From a virus, in IMG/VR virus record IMGVR_UViG_3300031578_000432, positions 1-20,415 of that record: DNA of 20,415 nucleotides. One strand, 5' to 3'. Below, piece by piece: positions 1-20,415 of the stretch. The first letter of the stretch is position 1. Every line of letters begins with the position of its first letter. The notes beneath the pieces were generated by a model. That model worked only from the letters and a program-made list of their open reading frames with translations, was not told the origin of the DNA and made no database searches. A program made the translations under genes and the position numbers.

Positions 1-1390
1 AACCGTCAGAAGGACAGCCTGCTCGTCAATGACGGTAAGAGTATCGCAGACCGAGACTTCATAGAAAGTAAACTGCTGTTCTACTGAGTCCGAAAGCGAT
101 ATCGTATCGTACACATTGACCGAGAGCTCGCTCGCTTCCACAAGAGTAACATCGGCAGCGTCGTTCAGACCAAGCGAATCGGAAACGAATATTTCCAGTA
201 CTGGAACTTCGAGGCCGGTAACATCCATAACGCCTACCGAATCGGAGGCCAATACCTCAAGGACCGGCAGTTGTATCGTCGTTTCATCAGTCACGCCAAC
301 AGAATCGAATACGCAGACTTCATAGACGGCGATCTGTGTAGTTGTAACATCCGATACGCCAATCGAATCAAAGACTGATACTTCAAGAGCCGGGATCTGG
401 GCCGTCGTTTCATCAGTGAGGCCAATATCATCGTAAGCAGATATCTCATAGACGGCGATCTGAACATCCGCTTCATCGCTTACTCCAATATTATCGGCAA
501 CCGACAGTTCGTAGAAATTCAACATGCCGGCCGTGGCTTCCGTCACCTGAACATTGTCATAAACATAAATGTTCAATACGGCTGCATCCTGGCGGATCGC
601 CGTGGCGCCGTCCGTGAGCCCTATGATGTCGCCGACAGCAATTTCCAGTAACGGATAGAAAGTATCGACCGCATCGGTCAGACCAATGGTATCGTAGACT
701 GAGACTTCCAGAACGGGCAATTCGACTACGATCTCGTCTGCCAGCCCTATACTGTCAGATACGAAAACTTCTAATACAGAGATGGATATTTCGACGGCAT
801 CCGTGAGGCCAACTAAATCCGATACCGACACTTCCAGGGCTGGAATCTGAACAGCGTCCTCATCGCTAAGTCCTATAGCATCGGCAACGGAAACTTCTAA
901 AACTGCAATTTCAACAGCAACATCATCACTCAACCCTATTCCGTCAGTAACCAAGGCCTCGTACAGAGACAAAGCTGCATCAACTGCCTCCGAAAACCCA
1001 ATACTATCGCTAACAGAAATCTCTAATACCGGTATCTCGTTAGCGACATCATCAGTTAAACCTATCGAATCAAACACGGATACTTCCAGGACCGGTATTT
1101 CAACAGCGGTTTCATCAGCCAAACTGATACTGTCAGTGACCGAAACCTCATATAAATCCAGGGCCAAATCAACCGCATCGGCCAAGCCAATATCGTCTGA
1201 AACGAATATTTCCAGCACCGGGATTGATATATTCACATCATCCGTGAGTGAGATTTCGTCAAAAACCAAAACCTCTATTGTTGGCACAAGCAGAGTTACT
1301 TCATCAGTTAGCCCAATATCATCTGAGACTGAGACTTCAAGAATTGGAATCGAGGCGGAAGCTTCTTCGGAGGCGCCAATATTGTCAAAG
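1..1390 (-). repeat. At least 22 tandem repeats of about 21 residues (about 63 bp) in the fibre gene
   Basis: Read on the minus strand, the motif LEV(S/F)V(S/F)DSIGLTDxVxxxIPV recurs every 20-24 codons, usually 21, and I count 22 copies in the window. The most constant positions are an aromatic or Leu followed by Glu, then Val, Asp, Gly-Leu or Gly-Val, and a second Asp or Glu. Third codon positions differ freely between most copies, so selection seems to act on the protein. The array continues past base 1. The regular hydrophobic/acidic alternation suggests a beta-stranded rod, possibly metal-binding, but that is inference. Confidence 0.88.
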
Positions 1391-3222
1391 ACGTTTATAA
1401 ATAGAGAGCTTCCAGCAACAACCTCAACATTGACAAAATCTGTTACGCCAACAGAGTCAACCCCAGACGCAAAATGTATTCCTATATTTGTATTAACTGT
1501 CCATCCCAGACCTTCTAATGTTGCTTTATCAGTTTCGCCACCTGCTGATGGAGCAGCATTATTACCCGGCAAATCCAGCGTATTGAATGCCCCATCGACG
1601 CCACTATCCACAATATCGGAAAGGATGTTATCGACTTGTGACTCTGTCAAAGAACAGTCATCCATGTCGACTCCGTCTATGCTTGCTGTTAGGTCAGCGA
1701 ATGCACCAGAGGTCGTATCGTAATCAAACGAAGTATTATTTGCCGTGAGAAAATCAAGTAAAGGCGGCCACGTCCACTGTGAAATATCACCAGAAAGAGA
1801 AGTGTTATAGCATTTGAAATCCACTAAACCAGTTGAATGCGTCCATCCAGATATATCTCCTGTAACAGAAGTGTTTTGCAGGTATAAATCGTAGAGAGTA
1901 TTAGGAAATGTCCAACCAGAAATATTGCCAGAAACCGATGTGTCAGCGAGGCTAAGAATTTCCAGAATGGTATTAAATGTCCAACCAGAAATATCGCCAG
2001 AAACGGATGTGTTATGAATGGACAGAGTATCTAACGCAACAGGAAATGTCCAACCAGAAATATCACCAGAAACGGATGTGTTGTAAGCATAAAAGAGTTC
2101 TAAACTACTCGGTAACGTCCAACTTCCAATATTACCAGATACCGATGTGCTTTCTACTCTAAAGGTCTGAACGCTGTTCGGAAGTGACCAACCAGAAATA
2201 TCGCCGGAAACGGATGTGGTTGCAAGATTTATAATGCTTAACCCAGTTGGCATTGTCCAACCGCTGATATCACCTGAAACATTAGTGTTTTGTAAAGAAA
2301 AATAAGTTAAATCATCTGGCAATTCCCATGACGCAACGCTTCCATACACATCATCGTTATATAAATTTATATAAGTTATAGAATCATAATCACTGCAAAC
2401 ATATTCAATTTTGTCGTCAGTGGATACAGATATGCTCCCTGCCACTCCAGATGTTAAACTGCTGTCGTAGGCATCGTTAATCCAAACCTCTACCGTACCG
2501 GAGGGAAAATTAAATTGTGGAGTTATGGTCGTGTCGGATGAAGCATAGACGGTCAATACGACGGCTGCATCCTGGCGGATCGCCGTACAGCCGTCTGTGA
2601 GTCCTATGATGTCGCCGACAGCAATTTCCAGTAACGGATAGAAAGTATCGACCGCATCGGACAGGCCAATTGTATCGGAAACTGAGACTTCAAGAGGCGG
2701 CGGCGTCTCATACGTCACCTCCATCGTCACGTAGTCGATATAAACGTTGGAGTTATTGCCTGTCGGTATGACAGCAAGAGCCACGCCGAAATCTGCATCC
2801 TTCACCCAGGCTGCCGTTAAAGAATTGCCCCAGAGATTGTCCGCTGCCCCTATCGTATAAATCGTCTCGCCAGTCGCTATAGCAAGTGGTATTGGCGTTG
2901 AAGCAAGGTTTGTCCCTACCTTGTTGCCGTCAACATCCAGAAGCTGCGCTAACGCAATTCCAGATGCACCAATGGTATAGTAGCCCTCAACCCTGACTGT
3001 GATACCAAGAATTGTCGCGCCAGCCGGAACAGCACTAAAGTCGAAACCTTTAGCCTTCAACACATAAGATTCAACACCGCTATCAAAGGCGGCATCGTCA
3101 ATGTAAGCATAGGCAGCGTCATTAGCCTTGATATTGTCCGGATCGATCCATGTCAAATGATCGTAGGGAGCCTCCGACGTTGTCGATGCTACTGTCGGAT
3201 ATTTTGCCCCTGTTGTTGCCAT
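1..3222 (-). CDS. Giant repetitive tail fibre / adhesin-like protein (3' end beyond left edge)
   Basis: The frame is open for all 1074 codons from the ATG at 3222 to base 1, so the C-terminus lies outside the window. AAAGAG sits 5 nt before the ATG, and the upstream gene stops 9 nt earlier. Residues 1-170 form a beta-rich domain ending in YIDYVTMEVTYE, a type common at the N-terminus of environmental phage structural proteins. After a short linker come about eight 23-residue leucine-rich-like repeats (about 298-495). Next is a segment with LTESQVDNIL and LDLPGNNAAPSAG, a pattern I recognise from other phage LRR proteins. From about residue 611 to the edge are tandem repeats of about 21 residues of the form LEVSVSDSIGLTDDV. 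Composition is acidic and rich in Ser, Thr, Val and Ile, with very few Lys. Host-receptor binding or a long spacer is inferred from architecture and position. No chaperone or depolymerase domain is visible. Confidence 0.85.
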   Translation of the reverse strand, partial: MATTGAKYPTVASTTSEAPYDHLTWIDPDNIKANDAAYAYIDDAAFDSGVESYVLKAKGFDFSAVPAGATILGITVRVEGYYTIGASGIALAQLLDVDGNKVGTNLASTPIPLAIATGETIYTIGAADNLWGNSLTAAWVKDADFGVALAVIPTGNNSNVYIDYVTMEVTYETPPPLEVSVSDTIGLSDAVDTFYPLLEIAVGDIIGLTDGCTAIRQDAAVVLTVYASSDTTITPQFNFPSGTVEVWINDAYDSSLTSGVAGSISVSTDDKIEYVCSDYDSITYINLYNDDVYGSVASWELPDDLTYFSLQNTNVSGDISGWTMPTGLSIINLATTSVSGDISGWSLPNSVQTFRVESTSVSGNIGSWTLPSSLELFYAYNTSVSGDISGWTFPVALDTLSIHNTSVSGDISGWTFNTILEILSLADTSVSGNISGWTFPNTLYDLYLQNTSVTGDISGWTHSTGLVDFKCYNTSLSGDISQWTWPPLLDFLTANNTSFDYDTTSGAFADLTASIDGVDMDDCSLTESQVDNILSDIVDSGVDGAFNTLDLPGNNAAPSAGGETDKATLEGLGWTVNTNIGIHFASGVDSVGVTDFVNVEVVAGSSLFINVFDNIGASEEASASIPILEVSVSDDIGLTDEVTLLVPTIEVLVFDEISLTDDVNISIPVLEIFVSDDIGLADAVDLALDLYEVSVTDSISLADETAVEIPVLEVSVFDSIGLTDDVANEIPVLEISVSDSIGFSEAVDAALSLYEALVTDGIGLSDDVAVEIAVLEVSVADAIGLSDEDAVQIPALEVSVSDLVGLTDAVEISISVLEVFVSDSIGLADEIVVELPVLEVSVYDTIGLTDAVDTFYPLLEIAVGDIIGLTDGATAIRQDAAVLNIYVYDNVQVTEATAGMLNFYELSVADNIGVSDEADVQIAVYEISAYDDIGLTDETTAQIPALEVSVFDSIGVSDVTTTQIAVYEVCVFDSVGVTDETTIQLPVLEVLASDSVGVMDVTGLEVPVLEIFVSDSLGLNDAADVTLVEASELSVNVYDTISLSDSVEQQFTFYEVSVCDTLTVIDEQAVLLTV
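578..709. repeat. Direct repeat copy B in the fibre gene
   Basis: This segment matches 2561-2692 with about eleven mismatches. It includes 26 identical bases at its start (578-603) and 58 identical bases at 620-677. It encodes part of a fibre repeat with the residues FYPLLEIAVGDIIGLTDG followed by TAIRQDAAV. Other repeat units in the same array are far less alike at DNA level, so this copy was probably generated or homogenised recently. Confidence 0.9.
1740..2330 (-). repeat. About eight 23-residue leucine-rich-like repeats (69 bp) in the fibre gene
   Basis: The translated unit is VSGDISGWTFPxxLxxLxLxNTS, repeated with a 69-bp period and well conserved at DNA level (ccaaccagaaatatc recurs on the plus strand). 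The spacing of Leu, Asn-Thr-Ser and Gly-Asp-Ile resembles extracellular-type leucine-rich repeats, which form curved solenoids used for binding. The last copy, near 1740-1800, is diverged (LSGDISQWTWPPLL) and acts as a cap before the non-repetitive part. The block looks more AT-rich than the flanking fibre sequence. Confidence 0.8.
2561..2692. repeat. Direct repeat copy A in the fibre gene
   Basis: This is the partner of 578-709 at an offset of 1983 bp, which is exactly 661 codons. It lies between the N-terminal domain and the leucine-rich block, so the two copies bracket the leucine-rich block and about twelve of the 21-residue repeats. It is a lone 21-residue-type unit placed away from the main array. 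Confidence 0.9.
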
Positions 3223-4701: not shown

Positions 4702-5175
4702 TTAGGTCGTCGAATAACGCCATTCGTATGAGCAGTTAACGCTCTGCGTGGTAGCCAATGCCGAAGAAGCGAAAGCTTTGCCTGCCAGCAGCGAGCCGGA
4801 CGAATTGGCAAACACCCCGATATTGGCAATCGTTACGGCGCCCAGTGCCCCGTCAAAGGCTACGGACATGCGGGCGGTCAAACTGTCAATAACGGAACTC
4901 TGGGCAAAAGCCGAGTAGTAATCGGAATGGCTGTCAGCAAGTTCCACATCACTGCCCACGGGGTTGCCTGTTCCACTACCAAGCCTGAGACCGGCGGCCT
5001 GGACGGATGCGGCTCCTATCGGGGCGGCGACGATGCAACTGTTCAAGCCGTAGTTGGTAATCTGGTTTTCAAACCAGCCGGAATCGCCAACTATCTTTTT
5101 CGTTTTCTTGTCCACGATTTGCAGACGTGCGAAACCCTTGATGCCAATGCAACTTGTTAATTTTTTAATTCTCAT
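4702..5175 (-). CDS. Probable phage structural protein (157 residues)
   Basis: A good GGGAG lies 7 nt before the ATG. After a charged start (residues 1-35, with KLTSCIGIKGFARLQIVDKK) the protein is small-residue rich. It has the feature GLRLGSGTGNPVGSDVELAD, common in phage tail-associated beta-structured proteins, followed by alternating Ala/Ser/Val strands. The segment RLQIVDKKTKKIVGDSGWFENQITNYGL resembles the start of many small phage virion proteins in which a beta-hairpin leads to a loop. There is no signal peptide or catalytic motif. A virion role is inferred from composition and from its place in the capsid-to-fibre region. Confidence 0.6.
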   Translation of the reverse strand: MRIKKLTSCIGIKGFARLQIVDKKTKKIVGDSGWFENQITNYGLNSCIVAAPIGAASVQAAGLRLGSGTGNPVGSDVELADSHSDYYSAFAQSSVIDSLTARMSVAFDGALGAVTIANIGVFANSSGSLLAGKAFASSALATTQSVNCSYEWRYSTT

Positions 5176-5246: not shown

Positions 5247-5537
5247 TTACTTTTTCTTCGGTTTGGCCTTCGGTTCTTGTTTATCCGGCTCATCCGGCAC
5301 TACCCCCGGCTCTTCTCGATGCACGGCAAGCAGATGCTCCTTGAACAACTCGGGAGTCTGCCTGACCGCGCCGCACAATTTGCAGGTCAATCCCGTTTCC
5401 TTGACGGGCGGTACCGGGGCTTTCGCCGACACATCAACCTCTTCACCGGAACTCGGATCGTAATAAACACCATCCTGTTTCCAGAGGGTTCCGCTCTTTG
5501 AGCCGGCGATATCGTAAGGTCTACTTTTGTCTAACAT
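5247..5537 (-). CDS. Small C2H2 zinc-finger-like protein
   Basis: The 96-residue protein contains CKLCG at 52-56 and HLLAVH at 68-73, a Cys2-His2 spacing like a classical zinc finger, which is uncommon in phage structural regions. The C-terminus (PDKQEPKAKPKKK) is Lys/Pro-rich. The N-terminus has a short segment LWKQDGVYYDPSSGEEV. AGGAG is 8 nt before the ATG, and the start lies inside the last 17 nt of the upstream transferase gene, so translation is probably coupled. It could bind nucleic acid or be a small structural or accessory protein. I see no basis for choosing. Confidence 0.7.
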   Translation of the reverse strand: MLDKSRPYDIAGSKSGTLWKQDGVYYDPSSGEEVDVSAKAPVPPVKETGLTCKLCGAVRQTPELFKEHLLAVHREEPGVVPDEPDKQEPKAKPKKK

Positions 5538-7137
5538 TTTTCCATCTCCTGTAATATTTTTCGATTGCTTCGACTATTCTTTCAGGCTTGAGGGCTTCCA
5601 TGCACTTTGCACCATCGTGCCTTACGTTTAATGGGATAATATTGCCGTCCACAGTCTTAATCTGGGCCTTTGATACGAGGCATTCGCCGTCGTAAATCAG
5701 CCTGTGACACGGCTGGCAGTTAACCGGCGCGGACAATGCCGTGCAGTTCTTCCAGTATTTTGTCAGGTTCTCCGGCGATGAATGACTGAGAAAGACGATC
5801 TTGGGAGTATCGTAGCAGCTTGCAGCGTTGAGCACCCCCGTCTCCGGACCTACAACAAGGTCACAATATTTCGTCATCAGCATGGACTGGCGAATGGTCC
5901 AGGCGCCGGATTTGTTGAGAGTGTTCTGATGTTTCCACGACTCCAGGATCTTGCACATCTCATCGCCGACCGTAACGATAACAATGTCCGGATGCTTCTG
6001 ATGGATTGTGCCGGCCACGATGTGGGTCCAGGGATAGCATTTATGCAAACTCGAACCCGACAGCGACCAGAGAATCATAAACTTGTCTTCATTCTGCTGA
6101 CGGATAATCCGGGCAAGCGATTCTTCCATATCGGTAAAATGCAGTTCCGGTAATTGGCCCTTCATATCGGGATAACCGGCGGCATCCATAGTCCTGTCCA
6201 TATAATTGATATTGCAAAGCTCGTTACGCTTTTTGTGAGAAAGATGATATTCGGCAGTGCCCTGTCGAACCAGCAGCGTTTTTTCCACGCTTTCGCAGAG
6301 ATTGACGACACGGTCGAATCCTTTGCCGATTTCCTCCCAGTACGGACCCAGCTCGGCGTTTGGAACAACGTCACGCTCCTGCAGCATGAACTCGTCTATC
6401 CAGGGACATTCCCTTAATACTTCGGCCGAGTAAGGAGTGCAATTATAAGTGATCCTAAAGCCATCGGACTTGAGTTGTCTCAAAACCGCCGTTGCCCAGA
6501 CGGCATCGCCTAAAGCACCATAGCGAATAACCAGGCAAGTTTTTCCAGCCTTTTTACGGGGGAACGCCACGAAACCGTTATTGGATTTCAATGGCTCGGT
6601 CATGCAAGCCGGAAGAATGCGCCTGAGCATACCGACACGCTTTCTTACAATGATTTGGAAGCTGTATTCGTTGCTCGAATTATGTTCCGTGGCTGAAATC
6701 AGTTTGAAGTTGCCGAACTTCTTGAGAATAGCCCAAATATCGCGCCACTCAAAATCTTGTTGATGATTTGGATTCGCCCCGGCCGTTCCGACATTGGGAT
6801 AAAACTTTCTATCGGGAAGATACAGGATTAGGTATCCACCCGACTTAATCACGCGACACCACTCCCGTAGGATCGGTTCAGTACATTTGAAATCCTCGAG
6901 GCAGTGCGATGAAAAGACGTAATCGAAAACGCCATCTGAAAATATACCGAGTGCATTATCTGCCGACAGGTCCAACTTGATATCGGCCGCCGAGCCAGCA
7001 ATGTCTATCCCCGTAGCTTCATCGCAGACCTTCTCATTCCCGCAACCAATGTCCAACCCTGTTCCCCGCAGATAACTTGCTACCCTGTATCTGCACTTCT
7101 GGGCCTCGTAACCCTGCGATAATTGCGAATTCCACAT
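5521..7137 (-). CDS. Two-domain enzyme: N-terminal methyltransferase, C-terminal GT9 (heptosyltransferase-like) glycosyltransferase
   Basis: The 538 residues hold two modules. Residues 1-170 form a class I methyltransferase with GLDIGCGNE (27-35), GIDI (43-46) and DYVFSSHCLED (72-82). Residues about 198-538 match the glycosyltransferase family 9 fold. They start with CLVIRYGALGDAVWATAVLR (201-220), which contains the GxxGD signature, and reach GPETGVLNAAS (430-440), the usual nucleotide-sugar-side motif, and then a Cys-rich CQPCH to GEC (474-485). GT9 enzymes typically transfer heptose or related sugars to lipopolysaccharide or protein. Here the donor and acceptor are unknown. The gene starts 3 nt after the upstream GT2 stop and overlaps the downstream zinc-finger gene by 17 nt, so it sits in one operon. 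Confidence 0.85.
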   Translation of the reverse strand: MWNSQLSQGYEAQKCRYRVASYLRGTGLDIGCGNEKVCDEATGIDIAGSAADIKLDLSADNALGIFSDGVFDYVFSSHCLEDFKCTEPILREWCRVIKSGGYLILYLPDRKFYPNVGTAGANPNHQQDFEWRDIWAILKKFGNFKLISATEHNSSNEYSFQIIVRKRVGMLRRILPACMTEPLKSNNGFVAFPRKKAGKTCLVIRYGALGDAVWATAVLRQLKSDGFRITYNCTPYSAEVLRECPWIDEFMLQERDVVPNAELGPYWEEIGKGFDRVVNLCESVEKTLLVRQGTAEYHLSHKKRNELCNINYMDRTMDAAGYPDMKGQLPELHFTDMEESLARIIRQQNEDKFMILWSLSGSSLHKCYPWTHIVAGTIHQKHPDIVIVTVGDEMCKILESWKHQNTLNKSGAWTIRQSMLMTKYCDLVVGPETGVLNAASCYDTPKIVFLSHSSPENLTKYWKNCTALSAPVNCQPCHRLIYDGECLVSKAQIKTVDGNIIPLNVRHDGAKCMEALKPERIVEAIEKYYRRWKNVRQK

Positions 7138-7140
7138 CTG

Positions 7141-7929
7141 TTATCCTTTCGTCTTTACTCTTAATCCTGCAATTTGACTGCATTGACTGCGTATGTGTTC
7201 GATATGAGGTTTCAGATCTTCGGCGCTCGAGTCTACTTTCGGATGGCTGAGTGTCTGAAACAGCTCCCCGGTAATCCATTTGCGGGCGTAATAATCCATA
7301 TCGAGAATCTTTCGTGCGCATATTTCATTCGAACCGTGCACTTTAGATACCCCGCCTTCGTGAACTCCCCGGGCCCTGACAATATTCCAGATTTGAAAAC
7401 CACGCGATCTTGCCGTAAAGCAATAATCGCTGTCACTGCCGACAAGCTGCATATTCTCATCGAGCAGGCCTATCTCTCTCAGCATGGCCGTTCGCATAAT
7501 CCAGCAGCAGGCACTGGCCCATCGCACCTGTGCGTTATCGCGGAAAACAGCCAAGGACCCAATTGCGGCAGTACCCAACGGGTAAGTACCCACCCCGCCG
7601 GCACATATAACTTCATCGGGATTGACCTGAGATAATTGAAGAGGCATTCCGATTCCGCAGTCCGGCATACCGTCCATAAACTTCACCATCTCCTCGACGG
7701 CCCCTGCCTCCAGGTACATATCCTGATTGAGAATGATAATATACGGTTCCTGCGGATCGCTTTTTAAGAATGCCCGCAACCCGACGTTGACGGCCCGCGT
7801 GAAATAGATATTCTCATCGGTATTATCGTGGATATAAACTTTGACATGAACCGTCTGTTTGCGTAAATGCTCAAGGCATTTGTCGAGCTGCTCTCTGTTT
7901 TTGAAGAATGGGATTACCACTGGAATCAT
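7141..7929 (-). CDS. GT2-family glycosyltransferase
   Basis: The 262-residue protein begins with the GT-A strand MIPVVIPFFKN. It has a DNTDEN segment (35-40) in the nucleotide-binding region and LNQDMYLEAGAVEEMV (67-82), the variant DxD region. GSDSDYCFTARSRG (164-177) corresponds to the acceptor-side acidic (ED-like) motif of GT2 rhamnosyl/glycosyl transferases, and VHEGG follows at 189-193. The ATG at 7929 overlaps the upstream stop as ATGA. A GTG at 7938 is possible, but its GGGAG would be too close. It is probably translated with the flanking transferases and may extend the same glycan. Substrates are not readable. Confidence 0.87.
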   Translation of the reverse strand: MIPVVIPFFKNREQLDKCLEHLRKQTVHVKVYIHDNTDENIYFTRAVNVGLRAFLKSDPQEPYIIILNQDMYLEAGAVEEMVKFMDGMPDCGIGMPLQLSQVNPDEVICAGGVGTYPLGTAAIGSLAVFRDNAQVRWASACCWIMRTAMLREIGLLDENMQLVGSDSDYCFTARSRGFQIWNIVRARGVHEGGVSKVHGSNEICARKILDMDYYARKWITGELFQTLSHPKVDSSAEDLKPHIEHIRSQCSQIAGLRVKTKG

Positions 7930-9260
7930 CTTCTGCACGGCTCCCGCAAGTTCAGTAGTTCTCGCCTGTTTTCTTCCAAAAACTCGTAAGTTGGAATTAT
8001 CTCTTTAGTAAACAACTCCTGAGAGGTTTTTTCTATAACCCCAACCCCGTAATCGACATCGAAAACATACATGCCCAGGTCCGGCCTCGATGCCCTCAGC
8101 TCCGCCCAGGCCTTCCAGACATCGCCGCACCAAAGACCCTTCCTGACGTTGACAGGGCATTGAAGCCCTTCCGACGTCGGGTTGCAGTCGTGGACTACGA
8201 TAAATCCGTTTTCCGTTATGAGATTAAGCGCGTTATTTATATCTCTCAAAGCCTGTTCGGCCGTATGCAGGCCATCGACAAAAATCAGGTCGAACTTTTC
8301 ACCCCTGTAACTCTCGAAGAAGTCGTCAGAAGTCATTCTGTATTTGCAATCCTCATTCGGGTCGACACCCGTCTTGTAATCGCAATTTATCTTATTGAAA
8401 TTCGTTGCGGCATTGTCTACGCCGATTTCCAGGTACCGGGACAGGTGATGTTTGCTGATTAGGTCATTGATAATATCCGTCCTCAACACGCAATAATCAC
8501 CTAAGTGCGCGGAATATTTCCCAGGATTATCTCTGATACATTTCGGCAGTTCGGACAAACCTGTGAAACTGAACTCATAACCGGGCCGGCCGAACAGGTC
8601 GATACCCTCGCTTCTGCATTTCTCGATATTCTCTATGTTCGTATATTCCGGCCTGTCGCATTCCGTATGAGAGAAAGCGCAGAGTTTTTCCGCTATCCTT
8701 TCCGCACTCATCAAGTAGGCAAAATGCCACCCGGCATTAGGTAATATTAGCCGATCTTCTTTGCCCTGCCGTAATTGCCGGGCCGATTCGTAGTCTTTGT
8801 AACGGCAGAAAGCAGGCCATATCCAATCCCTCTTTTGGCGGCAGTTAAGCCAGTAATAATAGTTGCGCATACTCAGCCTGCCGGGTAAATTGGTCATTTT
8901 TATAATCGGCATGACATCGGCACTGACGATCTCATCGGCGTCGGTAAGGATAATTGTATCGTCGGGAAGGCATACGGTTTTCAAATAATCGTCGATAGAT
9001 TCCCTCTGTCCCCATTCATTGGCCCAGGCATCCGTAGCGTGATATGCGGTATGTTGAGAGATAATATGAACGATTCTGTCTTTGTGCTTCCTGTATCGCT
9101 CGCTGTTTTCGCAGAAATACAGGGGCTTTGGCTTGCCGGTATAAGTCCTGTCGGATTCGACCAGAACGAATTTATCGACAAGGCCGGACAGCTCTTCCAG
9201 GCGAATATCCAGAAGGTCGAACTCGTCATAAAACATAAAAGTATTGTAAATTAAGCCCAT
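7926..9260 (-). CDS. Two-domain enzyme: N-terminal GT17-like glycosyltransferase, C-terminal methyltransferase
   Basis: Starting at the ATG at 9260 (AGGA 7 nt upstream) gives 444 residues. Residues 1-250 resemble glycosyltransferase family 17: FYDEFDLLDIRLEEL near the start, FVLVESDRTYTGKPKPL (31-47), ILTDADE (104-110) as the metal/donor site, and GWHFAY (177-182). Residues about 255-444 form a Methyltransf_24-like domain with RYLEIGVD (275-282), FVDGLHT (327-333) and VVHDCNP (355-361), ending in WAELRASRPDL and DYGVGVI. GT17 enzymes add N-acetylglucosamine in eukaryotes; bacterial and phage members are not assigned. The fusion suggests addition and methylation of a sugar by one protein. It is the first gene of the glycan block. 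Confidence 0.85.
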   Translation of the reverse strand: MGLIYNTFMFYDEFDLLDIRLEELSGLVDKFVLVESDRTYTGKPKPLYFCENSERYRKHKDRIVHIISQHTAYHATDAWANEWGQRESIDDYLKTVCLPDDTIILTDADEIVSADVMPIIKMTNLPGRLSMRNYYYWLNCRQKRDWIWPAFCRYKDYESARQLRQGKEDRLILPNAGWHFAYLMSAERIAEKLCAFSHTECDRPEYTNIENIEKCRSEGIDLFGRPGYEFSFTGLSELPKCIRDNPGKYSAHLGDYCVLRTDIINDLISKHHLSRYLEIGVDNAATNFNKINCDYKTGVDPNEDCKYRMTSDDFFESYRGEKFDLIFVDGLHTAEQALRDINNALNLITENGFIVVHDCNPTSEGLQCPVNVRKGLWCGDVWKAWAELRASRPDLGMYVFDVDYGVGVIEKTSQELFTKEIIPTYEFLEENRRELLNLREPCRR

Positions 9261-9283
9261 GTTTATTCCTATAAAACATCCGT

Positions 9284-9310
9284 GCGGGAGAGACAACGCA
9301 TCCCTCCCGC
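9284..9310 (-). terminator. Terminator-like hairpin between the decoration gene and the glycan block
   Basis: On the minus strand, GCGGGAGGGA (9310-9301) pairs with TCTCTCCCGC (9293-9284) with one G-U pair and a 7-nt loop. The T-rich stretch GTTTTAT starts only about 6 nt after the stem, so this is weaker than a standard intrinsic terminator. It may act as a partial terminator or an RNA processing/stability signal that lowers expression of the transferases relative to the virion proteins. Confidence 0.5.
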
Positions 9311-9338
9311 CGAATGCCAAGACGAAAGGACTATTCTG

Positions 9339-12313: not shown

Positions 12314-12808
12314 TTAAGTTTTAGAAAGAGCTAACTTAGGGATGTATTGGCAACTATAGTTCTGGAACTCCACCTGAAACGGTCCATTCTTACTAATCAA
12401 TGAAGCGCTAAATGACAGTACATCACCGTAATGCCAATCGAGACGCCAAAGTTCGTGTTTGCCAATCCAATAGACAGAATCCTCAGCAGCAACGAGGTCT
12501 TGGCAAACATCGAGAGTCGGCAGGGCAATCGTAGTATCATCGGGAAGACCATTCTTGCTTCTTCCACATCCACAAATGCCAATCACGTTATCCGAATGAT
12601 TCGCAAAAAGGTGGAACCCTCGCCAATCCAAACTCACAAAATGCCCTTCGTTCATCAGTTCGCAACCTACCAAGCCGCGAGCCAAGGGATGGCTCTTGTT
12701 TAGCGGTGTACCTAACAGTGGCTTTGCTACGGCCTTAGAAGTACAACCAATACCAAGCAAACCGATTGCCGACTGAAAACATCTATGTATAAAACTTCGT
12801 CTATTCAT
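12314..12808 (-). CDS. Tat-signal secreted or lipoprotein-like protein with a short LamG-start motif
   Basis: The 164-residue protein starts MNRRSFIHRCF, a twin-arginine signal (RRSFI), followed by a hydrophobic stretch (AIGLLGIGC, 14-22) and AVA at 26-28 as a possible cleavage site. GIGC is a weak lipobox. Residues 38-55 (KSHPLARGLVGCELMNEG) resemble the start of LamG/concanavalin-like phage proteins, but the protein is too short for a full LamG domain and the rest (with DWRGFHLF, LPTLDVCQDL, YWIGKHELWRLDW) is not recognised. The start overlaps the upstream gene as ATGA. A phage-encoded folded protein exported by the host Tat system would be unusual inside a head module; it might act at the cell surface or in superinfection exclusion. 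Confidence 0.65.
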   Translation of the reverse strand: MNRRSFIHRCFQSAIGLLGIGCTSKAVAKPLLGTPLNKSHPLARGLVGCELMNEGHFVSLDWRGFHLFANHSDNVIGICGCGRSKNGLPDDTTIALPTLDVCQDLVAAEDSVYWIGKHELWRLDWHYGDVLSFSASLISKNGPFQVEFQNYSCQYIPKLALSKT

Positions 12809-14969: not shown

Positions 14970-15216
14970 CTTGACTCGCTTCCAATCGCACGGCACAACT
15001 GTTACAGTAATCCGTCCCATGCCCCTCGACATCATTTCCGTCCCAATAGCACCTGTAAGACTTCTTGCATCCGGGACAAGTAAAAAGTGGTTTCAACTTC
15101 CAAAAAGTTGGACATGAAAACAATTTATGCGACCAACGCTTAAAAAAGCCCTTCTTCTTAACTACTGTAAAAAAGGTCATTTCCCCTGTGCTATTTGGAT
15201 ATGATTCTGCTGCCAT
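14953..15216 (-). CDS. Small zinc-ribbon protein (87 residues)
   Basis: The basic N-terminal part (VVKKKGFFKRWSHKLF) is followed by CPGC (48-51) and later CNSC (71-74), a Cys4 zinc ribbon with a beta-strand YRCYWDGNDVEGHG between. It ends in VEVVK, matching the EVVK end of the upstream phosphatase because both 3' ends carry the same 17-bp repeat. Its ATG overlaps the upstream stop by one base (TAATG). Confidence 0.72.
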   Translation of the reverse strand: MAAESYPNSTGEMTFFTVVKKKGFFKRWSHKLFSCPTFWKLKPLFTCPGCKKSYRCYWDGNDVEGHGTDYCNSCAVRLEASQVEVVK

Positions 15217-15232
15217 TACTTGACTACCTCAA
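15216..15232 (-). promoter_or_regulatory. Shared translation-start module, copy 2
   Basis: TTGAGGTAGTCAAGTAA on the minus strand joins the phosphatase stop to the start of the 87-residue zinc-ribbon gene. All 17 bases equal copy 3. Confidence 0.7.
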
Positions 15233-15581
15233 TACCGAGTAGCATCTTGATTTGACTACAACTTGTTTCGGCAACGACAGGGGCAAATCTGAATCCCCGG
15301 TCATCAATATATAAATCCGCAATGGGTTTATTGCCTGTCTCTGGTGGATTATGGTCGCATGAATTTATACTATCGAAATCAAAATTGTGATGTGCGAGCC
15401 ATTCAAATAATGCAGGAGTTACTTTTCTGGTTGTCCATAAAATACAACGATAGCCAGCATTTTTGAGCAACCTAACTAATTCTGCTGTTTCAGAAATAGG
15501 GTCGCCAAAAACATCAACACCCTTCCACGTGTCATAAGTCGCACATACACCATCAAAATCAAAACATATTGTATTCTTCAT
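15216..15581 (-). CDS. HAD-superfamily phosphatase-like protein
   Basis: The 121-residue protein has motif I FDFDG at 7-11 (nucleophile Asp 8 and Asp 10), motif II TTR at 50-52 and motif III/IV KPIADLYIDDRG at 85-96. It is short and without a large cap domain, like phage HAD proteins related to the phosphatase half of polynucleotide kinase or to small nucleotide phosphatases. It probably removes phosphate from a nucleotide, a nucleic-acid end or a sugar phosphate; the substrate is not visible. It starts in an ATGA overlap and ends in the 17-bp start module of the next gene. Confidence 0.78.
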   Translation of the reverse strand: MKNTICFDFDGVCATYDTWKGVDVFGDPISETAELVRLLKNAGYRCILWTTRKVTPALFEWLAHHNFDFDSINSCDHNPPETGNKPIADLYIDDRGFRFAPVVAETSCSQIKMLLGIEVVK

Positions 15582-15787
15582 TTCTGGCTTTCGTAATCAT
15601 GCAGCATTTCACAATCAGGATAATCACACAAAAACCCGTCCACGTGGCTACACCCTTCTTTTTTGTAGAGCCTACAATGACATACGGGGTCATTCGTGCT
15701 TATTAGTATTCGCCTCCAAAGCGGGTAGTAGTTCTCTCTCGCGCCCTTCATATACAAACGATATATCTTTTTAAGCCATCTTAGCAT
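15578..15787 (-). CDS. Small basic cysteine-rich protein (69 residues)
   Basis: The ATG at 15787 follows GGAAGG and the shared start module. An alternative start at 15898 would overlap the upstream gene by about 100 nt and is unlikely. The N-terminal half is a basic amphipathic helix (MLRWLKKIYRLYMKGAREN). The C-terminal half has six cysteines or histidines (CHCRLYKKEGCSHVDGF, CDYPDC), suggesting a zinc-binding fold. It overlaps the phosphatase gene as ATGA. Confidence 0.6.
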   Translation of the reverse strand: MLRWLKKIYRLYMKGARENYYPLWRRILISTNDPVCHCRLYKKEGCSHVDGFLCDYPDCEMLHDYESQK

Positions 15788-15800
15788 TACGAGACTACCT
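15785..15800 (-). promoter_or_regulatory. Shared translation-start module, copy 1 (imperfect)
   Basis: AGGTAGTCTCGTAATG on the minus strand differs from copy 2 at only two bases over this length. It joins the stop (TAG) of the 67-residue gene to the start of the 69-residue cysteine-rich gene. Confidence 0.6.
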
Positions 15801-15998
15801 TCCCTTCTTTGTCGCCTTCTTCCGGCTTCGAACATAATGCCTGAGATTGTCCTGGTCTTTCTCGGCGCCCATACGCGCCCTGATAGAGACCTCGGCACTG
15901 GCCTTGCTCGTCGAGCTACCCACTACCTCGTTGTGGTCCTTGTTGACGATCTTCCACGGCCGCTCGGCACCTTTTACGTATCGGATTTTGTATGGCAT
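15795..15998 (-). CDS. Small basic phage protein (67 residues)
   Basis: It begins MPYKIRYVKGAERPWKIVNK and continues with EVVGSSTSKASAEVSIRA, ending in a strongly basic tail SRKKATKKGR. I recognise the pattern (strand, WKIVN, G..TSK..AE..IRA) as a common small phage protein in which a basic tail follows a beta-hairpin and helix; its job is unknown, with nucleic-acid or head binding likely. AAAGGATAG precedes the ATG and the upstream gene ends 3 nt earlier. Confidence 0.7.
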   Translation of the reverse strand: MPYKIRYVKGAERPWKIVNKDHNEVVGSSTSKASAEVSIRARMGAEKDQDNLRHYVRSRKKATKKGR

Positions 15999-16001
15999 TT
16001 T

Positions 16002-16241
16002 CTATCCTTTCACTTTCTTCTTTTTGCCCATCTTCTTGAACGTCTTGGCGAGATTCGCCTGTCTCTTGGTCTTTGTAGAAGCCTTCGAGTCGGACTTTGT
16101 CACCTTGGCGGCGTATTCCTGAACACCCATACCAGCCTTTTTTGCCTTCTTGGTAAAGGCCCCTTCCTGCATATCCATACCCTGAATCCACTTCTTCTTT
16201 TTCTGGCTCGACTTTCTTGATTGTACATATCCTTTAGCCAT
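16002..16241 (-). CDS. Small highly basic phage protein (79 residues)
   Basis: Lys makes up about a third of residues. KKKKWIQGMDMQEGAFTKKAKK is followed by GMGVQEYAAKV and a poly-basic end KKMGKKKKVKG. The WIQ...GAFTKKAKKAGM...EYA pattern is one I recognise in small phage proteins near portal genes. It may bind packaged DNA, but its role is unknown. AAGGAG lies 11 nt before the ATG and the gene follows the portal gene by 21 nt. Confidence 0.7.
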   Translation of the reverse strand: MAKGYVQSRKSSQKKKKWIQGMDMQEGAFTKKAKKAGMGVQEYAAKVTKSDSKASTKTKRQANLAKTFKKMGKKKKVKG

Positions 16242-16262
16242 ATCAAATAATCTCCTTCGGTA

Positions 16263-18248
16263 TTACCTCATTGGCGATGGTTGCGGCTGTCCTGCCGGTT
16301 GTGACGGCGCCTGGCCGGGCGGTAGTTGCGGCCTTTGTTGCTGCTGTGGCATTTGCTGCTGCATCATCATCTGTTCGGGCTCTTCCTCGCGGTGGGCCTC
16401 ATCCAGGTTCCAGAGACTAAGTAGTCGCTCCCACAAATCCTTCACATCGGTACACTGCGAAAGCTGCTGGTTCGCAAGCGCCAGACTCAGGGCCTGCACG
16501 AGATATTCCACCTGCTGTTTTTGCAGAAGCAGTAAGCTCAATCCGCCGACATTGAACTGATAGCGCTCGATGTTCTTGAATTCATCCGTAAACTGGCAGA
16601 GCATTTCATAGCTGCTCCGCAGAATTTTTCGTATCGTATTCATTTCTATCTTCCGGGCGATTACATCGAAATAACCGTGAGACTCGCTCGTCTTGATCTC
16701 GATCTCCCCCAGTGTCTTGGATTTACCGCCGGGCATCGCGGTAAGAAACTCCGTCACTGCCGTACCTTCCTGCAGCTCCCTCGTGACAAGTTCGAACACC
16801 TTGAACGCGTCGGCCGCAATCCCATGAGTGTTTACCTGGGTGACAACAGGTCCTGTTGTTCCCGGCTTGGTCTTAATGAGCTTGCCGGGGAATATGCTGT
16901 GCATCCTGGCCGGCTCAAGAAGTTTCTGCGGATCGTACTCAAGCATCATATTGACCGAGTAGTTCAGGTTGTCTATGAACATATTCAACAGGTTATTCAG
17001 CGTATACTGGAGCTTGATTTCAGCCTCGACCATTGATTTCCCTGCAAGACCGCGGTGAGGATAGGGCATGGGCACGCAAAAGTCGTATGGCGGCTTCTTA
17101 TTCTTACTAAGAGGTTGTGGGTTGCCGTCGTTCCTGATGAGATACCTTTCGTTTGCGAGCATCAATAGCTGGCCCTTCTTTTTCTCCTTGCCATCCTTAC
17201 TGACCACGGTACCCCAGAACTCAAGGATCTTTACCTTTTTTGATTCCGACTTATGCTCATCGAGACCACGCCTCTTGTTCTGCTCGGCATTTTCATCCGC
17301 CTTCTGCTCACTGGTCTCCGTGACCTTATCGATCTCATCCATATCGAAGACATGGCCATCTTTGTCGGACTTTTCAAAGCTTTCGTTGGCTTCCTTTGCA
17401 ACCTCGATTAAATCGCAGAGCAACATTTCTTTGTACTCGATAATGTAGCGGGGCGGCTCATCCTGGAACGGAAGATAATCGGGCGCGATATAGATGTGCT
17501 GTACGTCTTTAGTCTCATAGCTCAATAGTTTATTTTTAACTATCCACAGCCGTTTGATTACACCGATACCCAGCAGGCAGGCGGGCTTTATCATCTCACC
17601 GAAAGCCGATACGAAGTTCGTCTTCTTCAAATGTGCTTTGAACCTCTTATCATCTTCTTTGCACTGCTCCTCGTATTCGTTCAACTTCTCTTCGAGTGAC
17701 TTGACCTTCTCTTTCGCGGCGTCTACGGTGGCATCGGCCTGCTCTATCTTTTTCTGCTGCATCTCTACAGACTTCGGGGCCTCGGGATTCTTTGGATCCT
17801 TCTCAATTCGCTTGAGTATTTCATTGACCTTGACGTATATCTTGTGAGCAGACTCCTGGGAATGAGCCAAATCCTTTCGGGCCCGGCGGATCATCGACTT
17901 TAACGGCAGTTTGAACTCATCGTCGAGCTCGATATGGAACAGCTTCGAGGTTTGCAGCGTCGCCCGCTCGATCAGCATGGAGGCACGCTCTATTGCCATG
18001 AATAATTTTGGTATGCACGTCTTGGACTGCCAGGGCTTCTTATCCTCGTAGTCCTGCTTGTTCTGGTATATCTGCCATAATTCCTGCCATTCTTTACGCA
18101 GCGTCTTGGTGGCTTCTTCGGCCTCTTTCTTGCAGTCCGTAATCCACTTGATAAGGTATTCGCTGTCGTCGAGACTGACAACACCTTCGTCCGTGGACTT
18201 CGGCTTGGCGGCCTCTTTGTCTTCCGTTTTCTTCTTACCTTTTGCCAT
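16263..18248 (-). CDS. Portal protein
   Basis: The ATG at 18248 gives 661 residues; GGGA is 6 nt upstream. A start 12 nt earlier (18260) has no ribosome site and abuts the terminator U-tract. Residues 35-110 (TLRKEWQELWQIYQNKQDYE, KPWQSKTCIPKLFMAIERA) match the start of long podovirus-type portal proteins, and VPMPYPHRGLAGKSMVEAEI with LQYTLNNLLNMFIDNLNYSVNM is the typical core. A charged coiled coil (about 118-210) interrupts the region after the first helices. The last 45 residues are Gln/Pro-rich and probably disordered. The portal forms the ring at the head vertex through which DNA is packaged by the terminase. Confidence 0.87.
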   Translation of the reverse strand: MAKGKKKTEDKEAAKPKSTDEGVVSLDDSEYLIKWITDCKKEAEEATKTLRKEWQELWQIYQNKQDYEDKKPWQSKTCIPKLFMAIERASMLIERATLQTSKLFHIELDDEFKLPLKSMIRRARKDLAHSQESAHKIYVKVNEILKRIEKDPKNPEAPKSVEMQQKKIEQADATVDAAKEKVKSLEEKLNEYEEQCKEDDKRFKAHLKKTNFVSAFGEMIKPACLLGIGVIKRLWIVKNKLLSYETKDVQHIYIAPDYLPFQDEPPRYIIEYKEMLLCDLIEVAKEANESFEKSDKDGHVFDMDEIDKVTETSEQKADENAEQNKRRGLDEHKSESKKVKILEFWGTVVSKDGKEKKKGQLLMLANERYLIRNDGNPQPLSKNKKPPYDFCVPMPYPHRGLAGKSMVEAEIKLQYTLNNLLNMFIDNLNYSVNMMLEYDPQKLLEPARMHSIFPGKLIKTKPGTTGPVVTQVNTHGIAADAFKVFELVTRELQEGTAVTEFLTAMPGGKSKTLGEIEIKTSESHGYFDVIARKIEMNTIRKILRSSYEMLCQFTDEFKNIERYQFNVGGLSLLLLQKQQVEYLVQALSLALANQQLSQCTDVKDLWERLLSLWNLDEAHREEEPEQMMMQQQMPQQQQRPQLPPGQAPSQPAGQPQPSPMR

Positions 18249-18261
18249 AGTTATTCCCATA

Positions 18262-18302
18262 CCAAAAGAAAAAGGGGCACGTCAGTTTCCCAACGCGCCC
18301 CT
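18262..18302 (-). terminator. Terminator-like hairpin directly before the portal gene
   Basis: On the minus strand, AGGGGCGCGT (18302-18293) pairs with ACGTGCCCCT (18282-18273) with one G-U pair and a 10-nt loop, then TTTTTCTTTT follows. This is a standard intrinsic terminator shape, but it lies only about 14 nt before the portal start, so it would cut off portal expression unless read through. Confidence 0.7.
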
Positions 18303-18368
18303 GGATAGGCTGCGATGATACCAGCATCTCGGCGGTAGCTACTCCGCCTGTGCCTGCTTTTCTTTTGG
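18262..18368 (-). other. Structured intergenic element enclosing three hairpins
   Basis: An 11-bp perfect inverted repeat (CCAAAAGAAAA at 18262-18272 and TTTTCTTTTGG at 18358-18368) encloses the terminator hairpin (18273-18302), a GATG/CATC hairpin (18314-18328) and a GGCGG/CCGCC hairpin (18331-18348). The outer stem contains the U-tract of the terminator, so the two folds could compete. I could not match it to a riboswitch family I know. Confidence 0.5.
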
Positions 18369-18388
18369 GTGTTAAACTATATTATTCA

Positions 18389-18691
18389 TTAAGGAATCCT
18401 GGCCTTCATCTTCTTAAAATGTCGGTCTTCTTCTTTGTGACTCAAGTAATAAGGTTCACCATCGAAAGGTTTATAAATAGAATCTATTGCATCTTCAGAA
18501 TAATCATCTTCGAGCGGCTCTTGAAATAATTGAGAAAGAGGATCACCATCAATGTGAAAAGGAGACCTATCTTTCTTTTCACTTGCAGTTTGTACACCAT
18601 GAGTACAATGCCAACAATATCCATCTTGCGACCTCGTATCTCGTCCACAACCAAGACAATTTACCAATTTTCTGTCTTCGTTATATCTCAT
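18389..18691 (-). CDS. Small cysteine-rich protein (100 residues)
   Basis: Cys-rich N-terminus: CLGC (12-15) and CWHC (26-29) form a short zinc ribbon. The remainder is acidic and disordered-looking (PLEDDYSEDAIDSIYKPFDG) with a basic end. It overlaps the upstream gene as ATGA. A structured element of about 130 nt follows it. Function unknown. Confidence 0.7.
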   Translation of the reverse strand: MRYNEDRKLVNCLGCGRDTRSQDGYCWHCTHGVQTASEKKDRSPFHIDGDPLSQLFQEPLEDDYSEDAIDSIYKPFDGEPYYLSHKEEDRHFKKMKARIP

Positions 18692-18987
18692 TTCTTGTCC
18701 TCATTGGGGCCGTTTATTCCCAGAGCTTCCTGTACGGCAGCGTCACATATCAACTCATCAGCACTTTTTTCTTTCGACTTAAATTCACCACACCAATCAT
18801 AATCTCCGTTTGTGCATGGGAATACCGCGATACGTCCACTATCACCTTCTTCGCACTGGTCGGGCTGGTATAGTAACGCGTTGATAATTACAGGGCTATG
18901 GCATCTGCATTCTCCATATTTATTATCATCCTCATCCGTCCCGCCTTCTTCAAAATCCCAATATTTGCAATCTTCACATTTTGCCAT
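18688..18987 (-). CDS. Small cysteine-rich protein (99 residues)
   Basis: CEDC (4-7), CRC (27-29), then C45, C57 and C66 suggest a double zinc-binding fold. The protein is acidic. AGGA lies about 7 nt before the ATG. The 86-nt gap to the terminase gene holds no supported gene. It is co-oriented with the terminase and overlaps the next small gene by 4 nt. Function unknown. Confidence 0.68.
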   Translation of the reverse strand: MAKCEDCKYWDFEEGGTDEDDNKYGECRCHSPVIINALLYQPDQCEEGDSGRIAVFPCTNGDYDWCGEFKSKEKSADELICDAAVQEALGINGPNEDKK

Positions 18988-19073
18988 AATCTATCCTGTT
19001 TTCTTTTCAACTTTTGCCATATCGAAACATCTTCGGCTATAACCGTTTTTTAACTTGACCTGAGAAGACGGGC

Positions 19074-20415
19074 CTACTCGAACTCGCTCTTTGTCGCGTA
19101 GGACTCCACCAGGTCGTTCTCATCCGAGCCTTCGCCTTCATCATCGGGGTAAATAGCTTCATTATCGTAGCCGATCTGCGTAAGCCCCCAGAGCCCATAG
19201 ACAAGACAATCTGCTCGGTTAGGGCTGTGGCCTATCCTGTCAGCCTTCTTGAGATCATCCTTTGACTCGATCTTGTAGCCTCTCGGAGTCAGCTCTAATC
19301 CGGTCTGTGAAAGTTCCTCGATGAGTATCGGATCATCAGGGATACTTGCCTGACTCTCTCGGAAAGCTATTCGGGCCGTCCACCATATCTCTGCTCGGCG
19401 ATTGAAGCATAGCGGGTCTGTCAGTTCAGATCGCTCCGAGGAGTTGACGGAGATAATGTTCCTTTCTCCCGTCTTAGAAAGCCAGCTAACTACGCCGGAT
19501 CCCGGCCCGATTACGTCCACTACAATAGCCTGAGCCTTAATGTCTATCCTCATCGCCTTGCAGCGTGAAGCTATCTGGTCCGGCTGCTTGTTATTAAAGA
19601 AATCATGGGCGATTACCTTGCCGTTCTTGATACCGTATATCACACCCTCATCCCCGCCGCCCGCCTCGGCAACCCCGCACGGATCGCAAGCCACAATTGT
19701 CTTATCTCGCAGCGTATGGTAGGAATTGCCAATCGCAGCTTTTATCCAACTGTACGGTATGACCTTTTCTTCAGTATCAATATCCTCCCAGCTATTGAGT
19801 ACGAAGCGGTTGTAAATATGGGGTGAATCCTTCTGCATTCGCACCAAGTCCTGAATGAAGTCAAGCGGAAGATTTCTCTTGTTATCATACGAATTAGCCT
19901 CGTATAGATCATAACTTCTCGGGTCGTATGCTTCCTCTACTTCTTTGTAGCTAAGGCCCGACTCCTTAGACATTCGCTTAATCTCTTCATCGCTCGGCCT
20001 TTCAGTATCTTTTATCTTCCATGTCTTCCATATCCAGTTGTGGCCCTTTGTATTTGCTATAACACAGCCATAGTGCGGTACTCCATCCCGCCTAAGCCTG
20101 CCCCTAAGCATATTGAACTCATTATCGGTACTGAACTCCTCCGCCTGCTCGATTACAAAGCCGCCCAAATTCATGTTTGCCAATACGTCTGAATTGTTCA
20201 CCTGCTCTCCGTGCCTGAACATAAACAATGAGCCGTTTTCAAATTTTACATTTTTGTCTGATCCCACTTTCAAGCCCGTGTACTTCTCGAAGTCAGGTAT
20301 AGTCGAGTCCTCAAGCCGCGTGAATTCCTTACGAACGATAAGCCATTCATTATTAGGGTACTGCTCACATTGCTTGACGGCCTTCAGGATTCCAAACATC
20401 GTCTTACCTGTGCCC
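19074..20415 (-). CDS. terL: Large terminase subunit (5' end beyond right edge)
   Basis: The frame runs to the right edge, where the residues GTGKTMFGILKAV show the second half of the Walker A loop, so the true start is outside the window. Counting from the Met at 20399, the Walker B strand and acidic pair are FVIEQAEE (81-88) and the coupling motif is ANTKGHNW (115-122). The C-terminal nuclease domain has three acidic metal ligands: D239 in ACDPCG, D295 in VVDVIGPGSG and D397 in HSPNRADCLVYGLWG. The ATPase drives DNA into the head through the portal, and the nuclease cuts concatemers. The C-terminus is very acidic (DDEGEGSDENDL). Confidence 0.93.
   Translation of the reverse strand, partial: GTGKTMFGILKAVKQCEQYPNNEWLIVRKEFTRLEDSTIPDFEKYTGLKVGSDKNVKFENGSLFMFRHGEQVNNSDVLANMNLGGFVIEQAEEFSTDNEFNMLRGRLRRDGVPHYGCVIANTKGHNWIWKTWKIKDTERPSDEEIKRMSKESGLSYKEVEEAYDPRSYDLYEANSYDNKRNLPLDFIQDLVRMQKDSPHIYNRFVLNSWEDIDTEEKVIPYSWIKAAIGNSYHTLRDKTIVACDPCGVAEAGGGDEGVIYGIKNGKVIAHDFFNNKQPDQIASRCKAMRIDIKAQAIVVDVIGPGSGVVSWLSKTGERNIISVNSSERSELTDPLCFNRRAEIWWTARIAFRESQASIPDDPILIEELSQTGLELTPRGYKIESKDDLKKADRIGHSPNRADCLVYGLWGLTQIGYDNEAIYPDDEGEGSDENDLVESYATKSEFE

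Follow-up and report, generated by a model that had tools for sequence, protein, structure and literature searches.

In the viral DNA analysed here (the window, 20,415 nucleotides in its full length), the intergenic stretch in front of a probable portal gene raises the question of whether it encodes a structured RNA and, if so, what that RNA does for the genes around it. A sequence-only reading had described a terminator-like hairpin whose U-tract also forms one arm of a long-range stem, and had proposed that mutually exclusive folds of this kind resemble attenuators, that they could set the ratio of terminase to portal, or that the RNA could be associated with packaging.

The element in the window

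A structured RNA element of 107 nt lies on the minus strand at positions 18262-18368, between two phage genes. The recognised genes of the window are on this strand: the terminase large subunit is represented by a fragment (phrog_2), after which come two small ORFs, the element, and then an SU10-type portal/head-tail connector (16263-18260; Pfam PF23899, E = 9.7e-21; phrog_332, E = 1.9e-27). The small ORF directly upstream (18389-18691, minus strand) encodes 100 aa, has its stop 20 nt before the element and found no family match in Pfam and PHROGs searches. An IMG/VR contig (handles L002, L004 and L013) is 100% identical to the window across the compared stretches. Elsewhere on the minus strand, glycosyltransferase and methyltransferase genes (7926-9320 and 5521-7137; Glyco_transf_17, Methyltransf_24/11) are part of the late region, and an open 1074-aa ORF with many short repeats (..VSDSIGLTDAV.., ..SGDISGWTFP..) occupies 1-3222.

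The element is closed by P1, the 11-bp perfect stem of the sequence-only reading, in which CCAAAAGAAAA (18368-18358) pairs with TTTTCTTTTGG (18272-18262). The 3' strand doubles as most of the U-tract of P5, a GC-rich terminator-like hairpin of 13 bp with a GAAA loop (18302-18273), which has the longest stem among seven terminator-like sites in 15000-20415. P5 and a second hairpin, P3 (18348-18331), are both enclosed by P1. The U-tract arm is separated by 13 nt from the probable portal start, ATG 18248 (about 14 nt had been stated), and the longest portal ORF has an alternative start at 18260, 1 nt from the arm. The folding energy of 18370-18263 corresponds to z = -3.85, with none of 200 shuffles equally low, and that of the 107-nt element to z = -4.15, again beyond all 200 shuffles; the plus strand of the region folds less well (z = -1.99). 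P1 and P5 coexist in the predicted minimum-energy fold and are therefore not mutually exclusive, so that the idea of competing folds holds for the core pairings described below and not for these two helices.

A family of related elements

The pattern of P1 arms at the right spacing occurs in seven viral contigs, including the window's twin, and all seven have the full architecture. The same pattern gave 21 matches in a collection of genome contigs; one is a family member (L020, in a Phycisphaerae MAG), and the other 20, which are without the core, were used as background. One such chance match (L027:2607-2723) is a tRNA-like stretch between two copies of one palindromic terminator-like hairpin. 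The family was grown to 22 sequences by the covariance model R1, a looser P1 pattern and a core-only pattern free of P1, P3 and P5, and further members came from models R2 and R3 and from whole-genome searches. The core-only pattern selected 57 contigs, of which all but L328-L330 were scored with a model and 11 are members; the matches listed for the looser patterns were mostly due to chance. In total, 28 distinct copies were identified, from 25 phage records or genomes. The window's copy scores 101.9 bits with R1, a model that contains the window, and 94.1 bits with R2, and a search of the window's own genome returned this known copy alone.

Counted outside the 28 are the sequence repeats L201, L276 and the second L339 copy, as well as the odd or degenerate copies L343 and L345, which were also excluded from model R3; L320 and L274 were omitted from alignment A6 only because their reverse strands matched too. 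Four weak matches (L208, L177, L043 and L052) were rejected as members. The last of these (L052:2443-2539, plus strand) is a borderline match of 19 bits in which the loop reads UAGCUA and a hairpin resembling P5 is present, while P1 and the core are not clearly recognisable; it may be a relative or a chance match. The L343 copy (4932-5083, plus strand) has an altered, longer P5, maybe through an insertion into the element, and the ORF after it resembles what we take to be the end of an IS110-type transposase; the genome that has it, G380, carries two other copies.

Few loci came from portal and terminase protein scans for relatives, and two of the relatives in these scans, L003 (54%) and L011 (46%), are both without the element. 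A search of the genome contigs with the portal alignment gave no matches, and no copy was present in L347-L349, three annotated phages (of 64 records) whose portals are distant. In BLASTN searches of the element against annotated phages, L320 as query gave no match and the window seven weak partial matches.

Conserved fold and covariation

The members share a common fold made of the closing stem P1, a pseudoknotted core of P2, P4 and P6, the small-loop hairpin P3, and the GC-rich P5, with a U-tract that supplies the 3' arm of P1. In the alignment of 22 sequences, 92.5% of 750 cells are paired and two-sided change is seen in 22 of 35 pairs, which none of 500 shuffles reaches; with slid partners, pairing falls to 43-57%, and 3-10 pairs have two-sided change. 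The 26-sequence alignment gave similar values (90.9% of cells; 23 of 35 pairs). The check for covariation and conservation that the earlier reading had proposed thus revealed strong covariation, and the element came through the computational half of that refutation test. The values for P1, P3, P4 and P5 lean in their own favour because the alignments were fitted to models holding those helices; P2 and P6 were in neither R1 nor R2.

For P1, 97% of cells are paired and seven of 11 pairs show two-sided changes in 26 sequences. Its arms are changed yet still pair in L310, L303, L341, L285/L340 and L346, and the second L340 copy has GGCAACGAA/UUCGUUGCC, so that the search pattern alone does not explain why P1 is kept. 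The P3 hairpin (GGCGG-AGUAGCUA-CCGCC) has two-sided changes in all five pairs. P5 is badly served by the alignment (54.7% of cells, 26 sequences) because its length varies, and it folds alone as a hairpin in each of the 28 members.

In the core, P6 and P4 form an ordinary H-type pseudoknot with a 4-bp stem, a one-letter loop and a 6-bp stem. Stem 1 is P6, in which GAUG (18325-18328) pairs with CAUC (18314-18317); the 5' strand of P4 (CUGGUAU, 18318-18324) lies inside the P6 loop and pairs with AUCCAG (18301-18306), with one U bulged in the window and two-sided changes in six of six pairs. P2 links the last loop of this pseudoknot to the 5' side by pairing AGGC (18352-18355) with GCCU (18307-18310), and it is paired in 98.9-99% of cells, with compensatory changes. 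A further pairing, P2alt, whose strand overlaps the 5' strand of P2, was rejected as the main stem: its columns 21-70 are unpaired in eight of 22 sequences, as against one of 22 for the P6 columns 70-82 (AU 14, GC 7, other 1 in alignment A4). Because P6 fits the varying column better, P2alt was demoted to an alternative pairing. One copy (L303:716-838, minus strand) has TTAGATGCTATACCA[C/T]CG twice, the P6/P4 strand being duplicated in tandem.

The P3 loop

We compared 30 P3 loops, those of the 28 members and of L343 and L345, which represent 20 distinct sequences. A palindrome of at least 4 nt is present in 17 of the 20 (shuffle mean 7.8, maximum 16 in 20,000) and one of at least 6 nt in 10 (shuffle mean 1.7, maximum 8), with AGCU, GAUC, GGCC, CGCG, CAUG, AAUU and UGCA among the palindrome cores; the loops of L019, L179 and L345 have none. 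The self-complementary loop of the window, UAGCUA (18336-18341), is thus a putative homodimer kissing site in which the palindrome is kept despite sequence change. The adjacent loop columns 34-35 can pair in 26 of 26 sequences (GC 19, AU 7), columns 33-36 in 24 of 26 (AU 13, GC 6, CG 4, UA 1) and columns 32-37 in 18 of 25, and the covariation score of the loop is matched by none of 500 shuffles. As neighbouring nucleotides within a single strand are unable to pair, this argues for intermolecular pairing. A homodimer would be expected to leave palindromic loop positions that covary, even in adjacent columns, and to the extent that alignments can tell, the covariation points to a homodimer kissing loop; a contact of 4-6 nt could be weak in the cell.

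Genomic position and neighbouring genes

The element lies mid-operon, and the next gene with a PHROGs assignment is always on the element's own strand, which is the strand that the neighbour scans covered. With the start taken as the first one opening at least 50 codons, it falls 11-32 nt 3' of the element in 24 of 31 loci, and the upstream stop codon is often at most 20 nt away. Downstream genes encode a portal/connector (phrog_332, phrog_156), the terminase large subunit (phrog_9), the major head protein (phrog_10, phrog_14242, with phrog_212 and phrog_9953 further on), the major tail protein (phrog_1407, phrog_2175/807) or, after L338, a glycosyltransferase (phrog_14945). The next genes of L274 and L342 have no family match, that of L341 is a homologue of the one after L342, and the downstream side of the L017 copy stops at the contig end. 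Since other phages place the element before terminase, capsid, tail and glycosyltransferase genes, it is not specific to the portal, and the proposed control of a terminase-to-portal ratio does not describe the family; with downstream genes so diverse, no single regulated function stands out.

BLASTP clusters identified three groups in which the downstream gene is common and the upstream gene is not (L014/L016/L218/L244, L015/L018 and L184/L201), and no group showing the converse. Three records, two of them close relatives (G682 and G683) and the third G692, have two copies, the second before another gene. The two copies in G692 (L340) are strongly divergent, the second scoring only 32 bits with R2, and their loops differ (UAGCUA vs. 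UUGCAA). No conserved promoter motif was found in the 40 nt upstream of the 28 copies. In several phages a small ORF directly precedes the element (L014:9509-9799, L218:5690-5935, L244:4936-5313; window 12314-12808 is listed with them); these ORFs begin like what we presume to be twin-arginine signal peptides (MKRRDFLQ.., MNRRNFLK..).

Alternative pairings and the terminator-like end

In 28 of 28 members, P5 is followed by at least 4 U within the next 6 nt, and this GC-rich hairpin with its U-tract stands upstream of the start codon at the short distance given above, an arrangement expected of an attenuator. Two alternatives to the core are conserved. P2alt is kept in 92.7% of its cells, and the GCCU strand can pair with the 5' arm of P5 instead of with AGGC (P2b:P5a), with 86.4% of cells paired as against 15-64% for slid partners and two-sided change in three of five pairs. 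When the RNA is cut before the 3' arm of P5, P2b:P5a is predicted with a mean probability of 0.80 and P2alt with 0.91, and P2b:P5a is absent from the computed ensemble of the full-length RNA. Such a pairing in the nascent RNA, lost at full length, is what an attenuator would do, and we regard the predictions as moderate support for one. In the control with shuffled P5 arms, 6.9 pairs formed as against 9.2 for the real arms, and the mean energy z was -0.71 (below -1 in nine of 28 members), so the antiterminator pairing, moderately supported as it is, does not clearly go beyond what composition would give. The likeness to attenuators that had been suggested is thus borne out for the terminator-like 3' end and the alternative folds, and more moderately for the antiterminator.

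Hosts and relation to known RNAs

Matches were found in five of 397 genomes of the class Phycisphaerae, to which L020 belongs, one of the five having the degenerate L345 copy only. A sample of 294 genomes of the phylum Planctomycetota gave a match in L020's own genome alone, besides one in G248 that was rejected as a plain terminator, and the phyla of a Verrucomicrobiales MAG and of a Pedobacter genome gave none (0 of 240 and 0 of 247 genomes). Because only the best 9-16 candidates per genome were scored, these counts are lower bounds. Since the genome matches fall in Phycisphaerae and none in the two other phyla, this class is the likely host for at least part of the family.

The whole window and eight loci had no match in Rfam 15 at the gathering score, epsC (RF01735) included; the best sub-threshold score was 22.2 bits for Termite-leu, as against a gathering score of 51. 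ARAGORN detected no tRNA or tmRNA in the window or in 10 loci. No published description was found in the open literature, with most subscription papers and preprints outside the reach of that search.

Discussion

That the copies form a genuine conserved RNA family is, in our view, practically certain. As to function, we prefer control in cis of the downstream gene by an attenuator-type switch leader, to which we give about an even chance, over a trans-acting dimer RNA or a passive element. Here, the element would be the leader RNA of the next gene inside a phage late operon, two transcripts could pair through their P3 loops, and P5 with its U-tract, placed between the upstream gene and the next one, would terminate transcription intrinsically or mark an RNA 3' end. 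The core could adopt either the pseudoknotted state of P2, P6 and P4, in which P5 is free to form, or an alternative with P2alt, where GCCU is paired to the 5' arm of P5 and the formation of P5 is delayed; dimerisation or another partner would bias this choice and thereby set read-through into the downstream gene. Action in cis is favoured by the conserved fold, the linkage to the downstream start and the presence of more than one copy per phage, the homodimer by the palindromic loop, and the terminator-like end by the U-tract hairpin of every member. On the other side, capsid and tail genes encode the most needed products, and attenuation there would be odd. In a more specific version, identical late mRNAs would recognise one another through a private P3 palindrome; once abundant, their leaders would dimerise and lock one core fold, altering read-through into the next gene or its translation. 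We consider this dose-sensing leader distinctly unlikely; if it were true, the two leaders of the L340 phage (UAGCUA, UUGCAA) would count their own transcripts separately, as the palindrome would be the address.

An attenuator-type leader would resemble terminator-type riboswitches and attenuators, including the manA and wcaG motifs of cyanophages (PMC2864571), in being a structured, phage-borne RNA before a gene with a terminator-like hairpin and competing pairings. It differs from them in standing before unrelated virion genes without a known ligand, in a P1 that includes the U-tract, in the homodimer loop and in its moderately supported antiterminator.

Alternatively, the element could be a stand-alone RNA, cut or terminated from the late mRNA, with ends zipped by P1 and its U-tail hidden in the duplex. 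Such an RNA would work in trans as a dimer, for instance as a decoy or during packaging, which would make it a small counterpart of GOLLD/ROOL or of the phi29 pRNA. The pRNA also comes from a phage, is of comparable length, has its ends paired and makes a loop-loop contact; the element shares the size and the paired ends, its own loop-loop contact being putative; unlike the pRNA, it is absent from a close relative, may occur twice and has no link to one type of packaging motor. A core packaging RNA would be expected in relatives that share the packaging module. L003, whose portal is the nearest (54% identical), lacks a copy in its record of 40,023 b, possibly a fragment, and the downstream families differ. 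Because of this relative and the three records with two copies, the core packaging role that had been raised for this locus is unlikely. Section 8 of PMC12286853 names the pRNA as an RNA homomer, and that source bases the homo-oligomer argument for OLE and GOLLD, the latter encoded in phages and prophages, on palindromic loop letters that change together, from GGCC to GAUC or AGCU. The P3 loop follows the same logic as OLE, ROOL and GOLLD, its dimer being read from alignments, but the element has about 107 nt rather than hundreds, no Rfam match and a cis position before virion genes. A trans-acting role would make sense of the self-contained fold with paired ends, the dimer loop, the terminator-like 3' end of every one of the 28 members and the position among virion genes; we nevertheless hold it to be rather unlikely, as no promoter is conserved in the 40 nt upstream of the 28 copies, the element tracks the downstream gene near its start, and the two copies of three records stand at different genes, one pair with different loops (UAGCUA vs. 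UUGCAA).

No more probable is a passive operon element, in which P5 and P1 shield mRNA ends or define where the mRNA is processed or partly terminated, so that neighbouring genes have different mRNA levels without a switch. The strong hairpin with its U-tract in every copy and the mid-operon place adjoining structural genes suit this explanation, but the pseudoknotted core, P2alt and a palindromic loop kept through change would all be needless. It is very improbable that the RNA acts on its own polymerase so that later terminators are read through, following the example of HK022 put (PMC9378689) or epsC/EAR (PMC2864571). These two offer precedents, in a phage and in EPS genes, for an operon RNA that, while nascent, could affect transcription in cis. 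Consistent with such an activity are the pseudoknot and a mid-operon, sense-strand position with no constant partner gene; against it, the element ends in a terminator-like hairpin, matches nothing in Rfam and varies in its place within the late operon, and put acts during early-gene transcription, as PMC9378689 describes, whereas the element is in a late operon. Finally, P5 and its U-tract do score as a terminator, yet the idea of a plain intrinsic terminator whose inverted repeats arose by chance is already refuted by the covariation in 22-26 sequences, and the core is absent from 20 of the 21 genome matches to the P1 pattern and present in all seven viral contigs; we give this explanation almost no credence.

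In summary, these results describe a compact RNA family, absent from Rfam, that occurs across tailed phages with no other evident relationship, whose hosts probably belong, at least in part, to an understudied bacterial class. It adjoins virion-building genes, and its sequences bear the mark of self-pairing with unusual clarity; natural RNA multimers have rarely been observed (PMC12286853, section 8). Since the loop carries many different palindromes that substitute for one another, dimerisation and any link between it and expression are directly testable with short transcripts.
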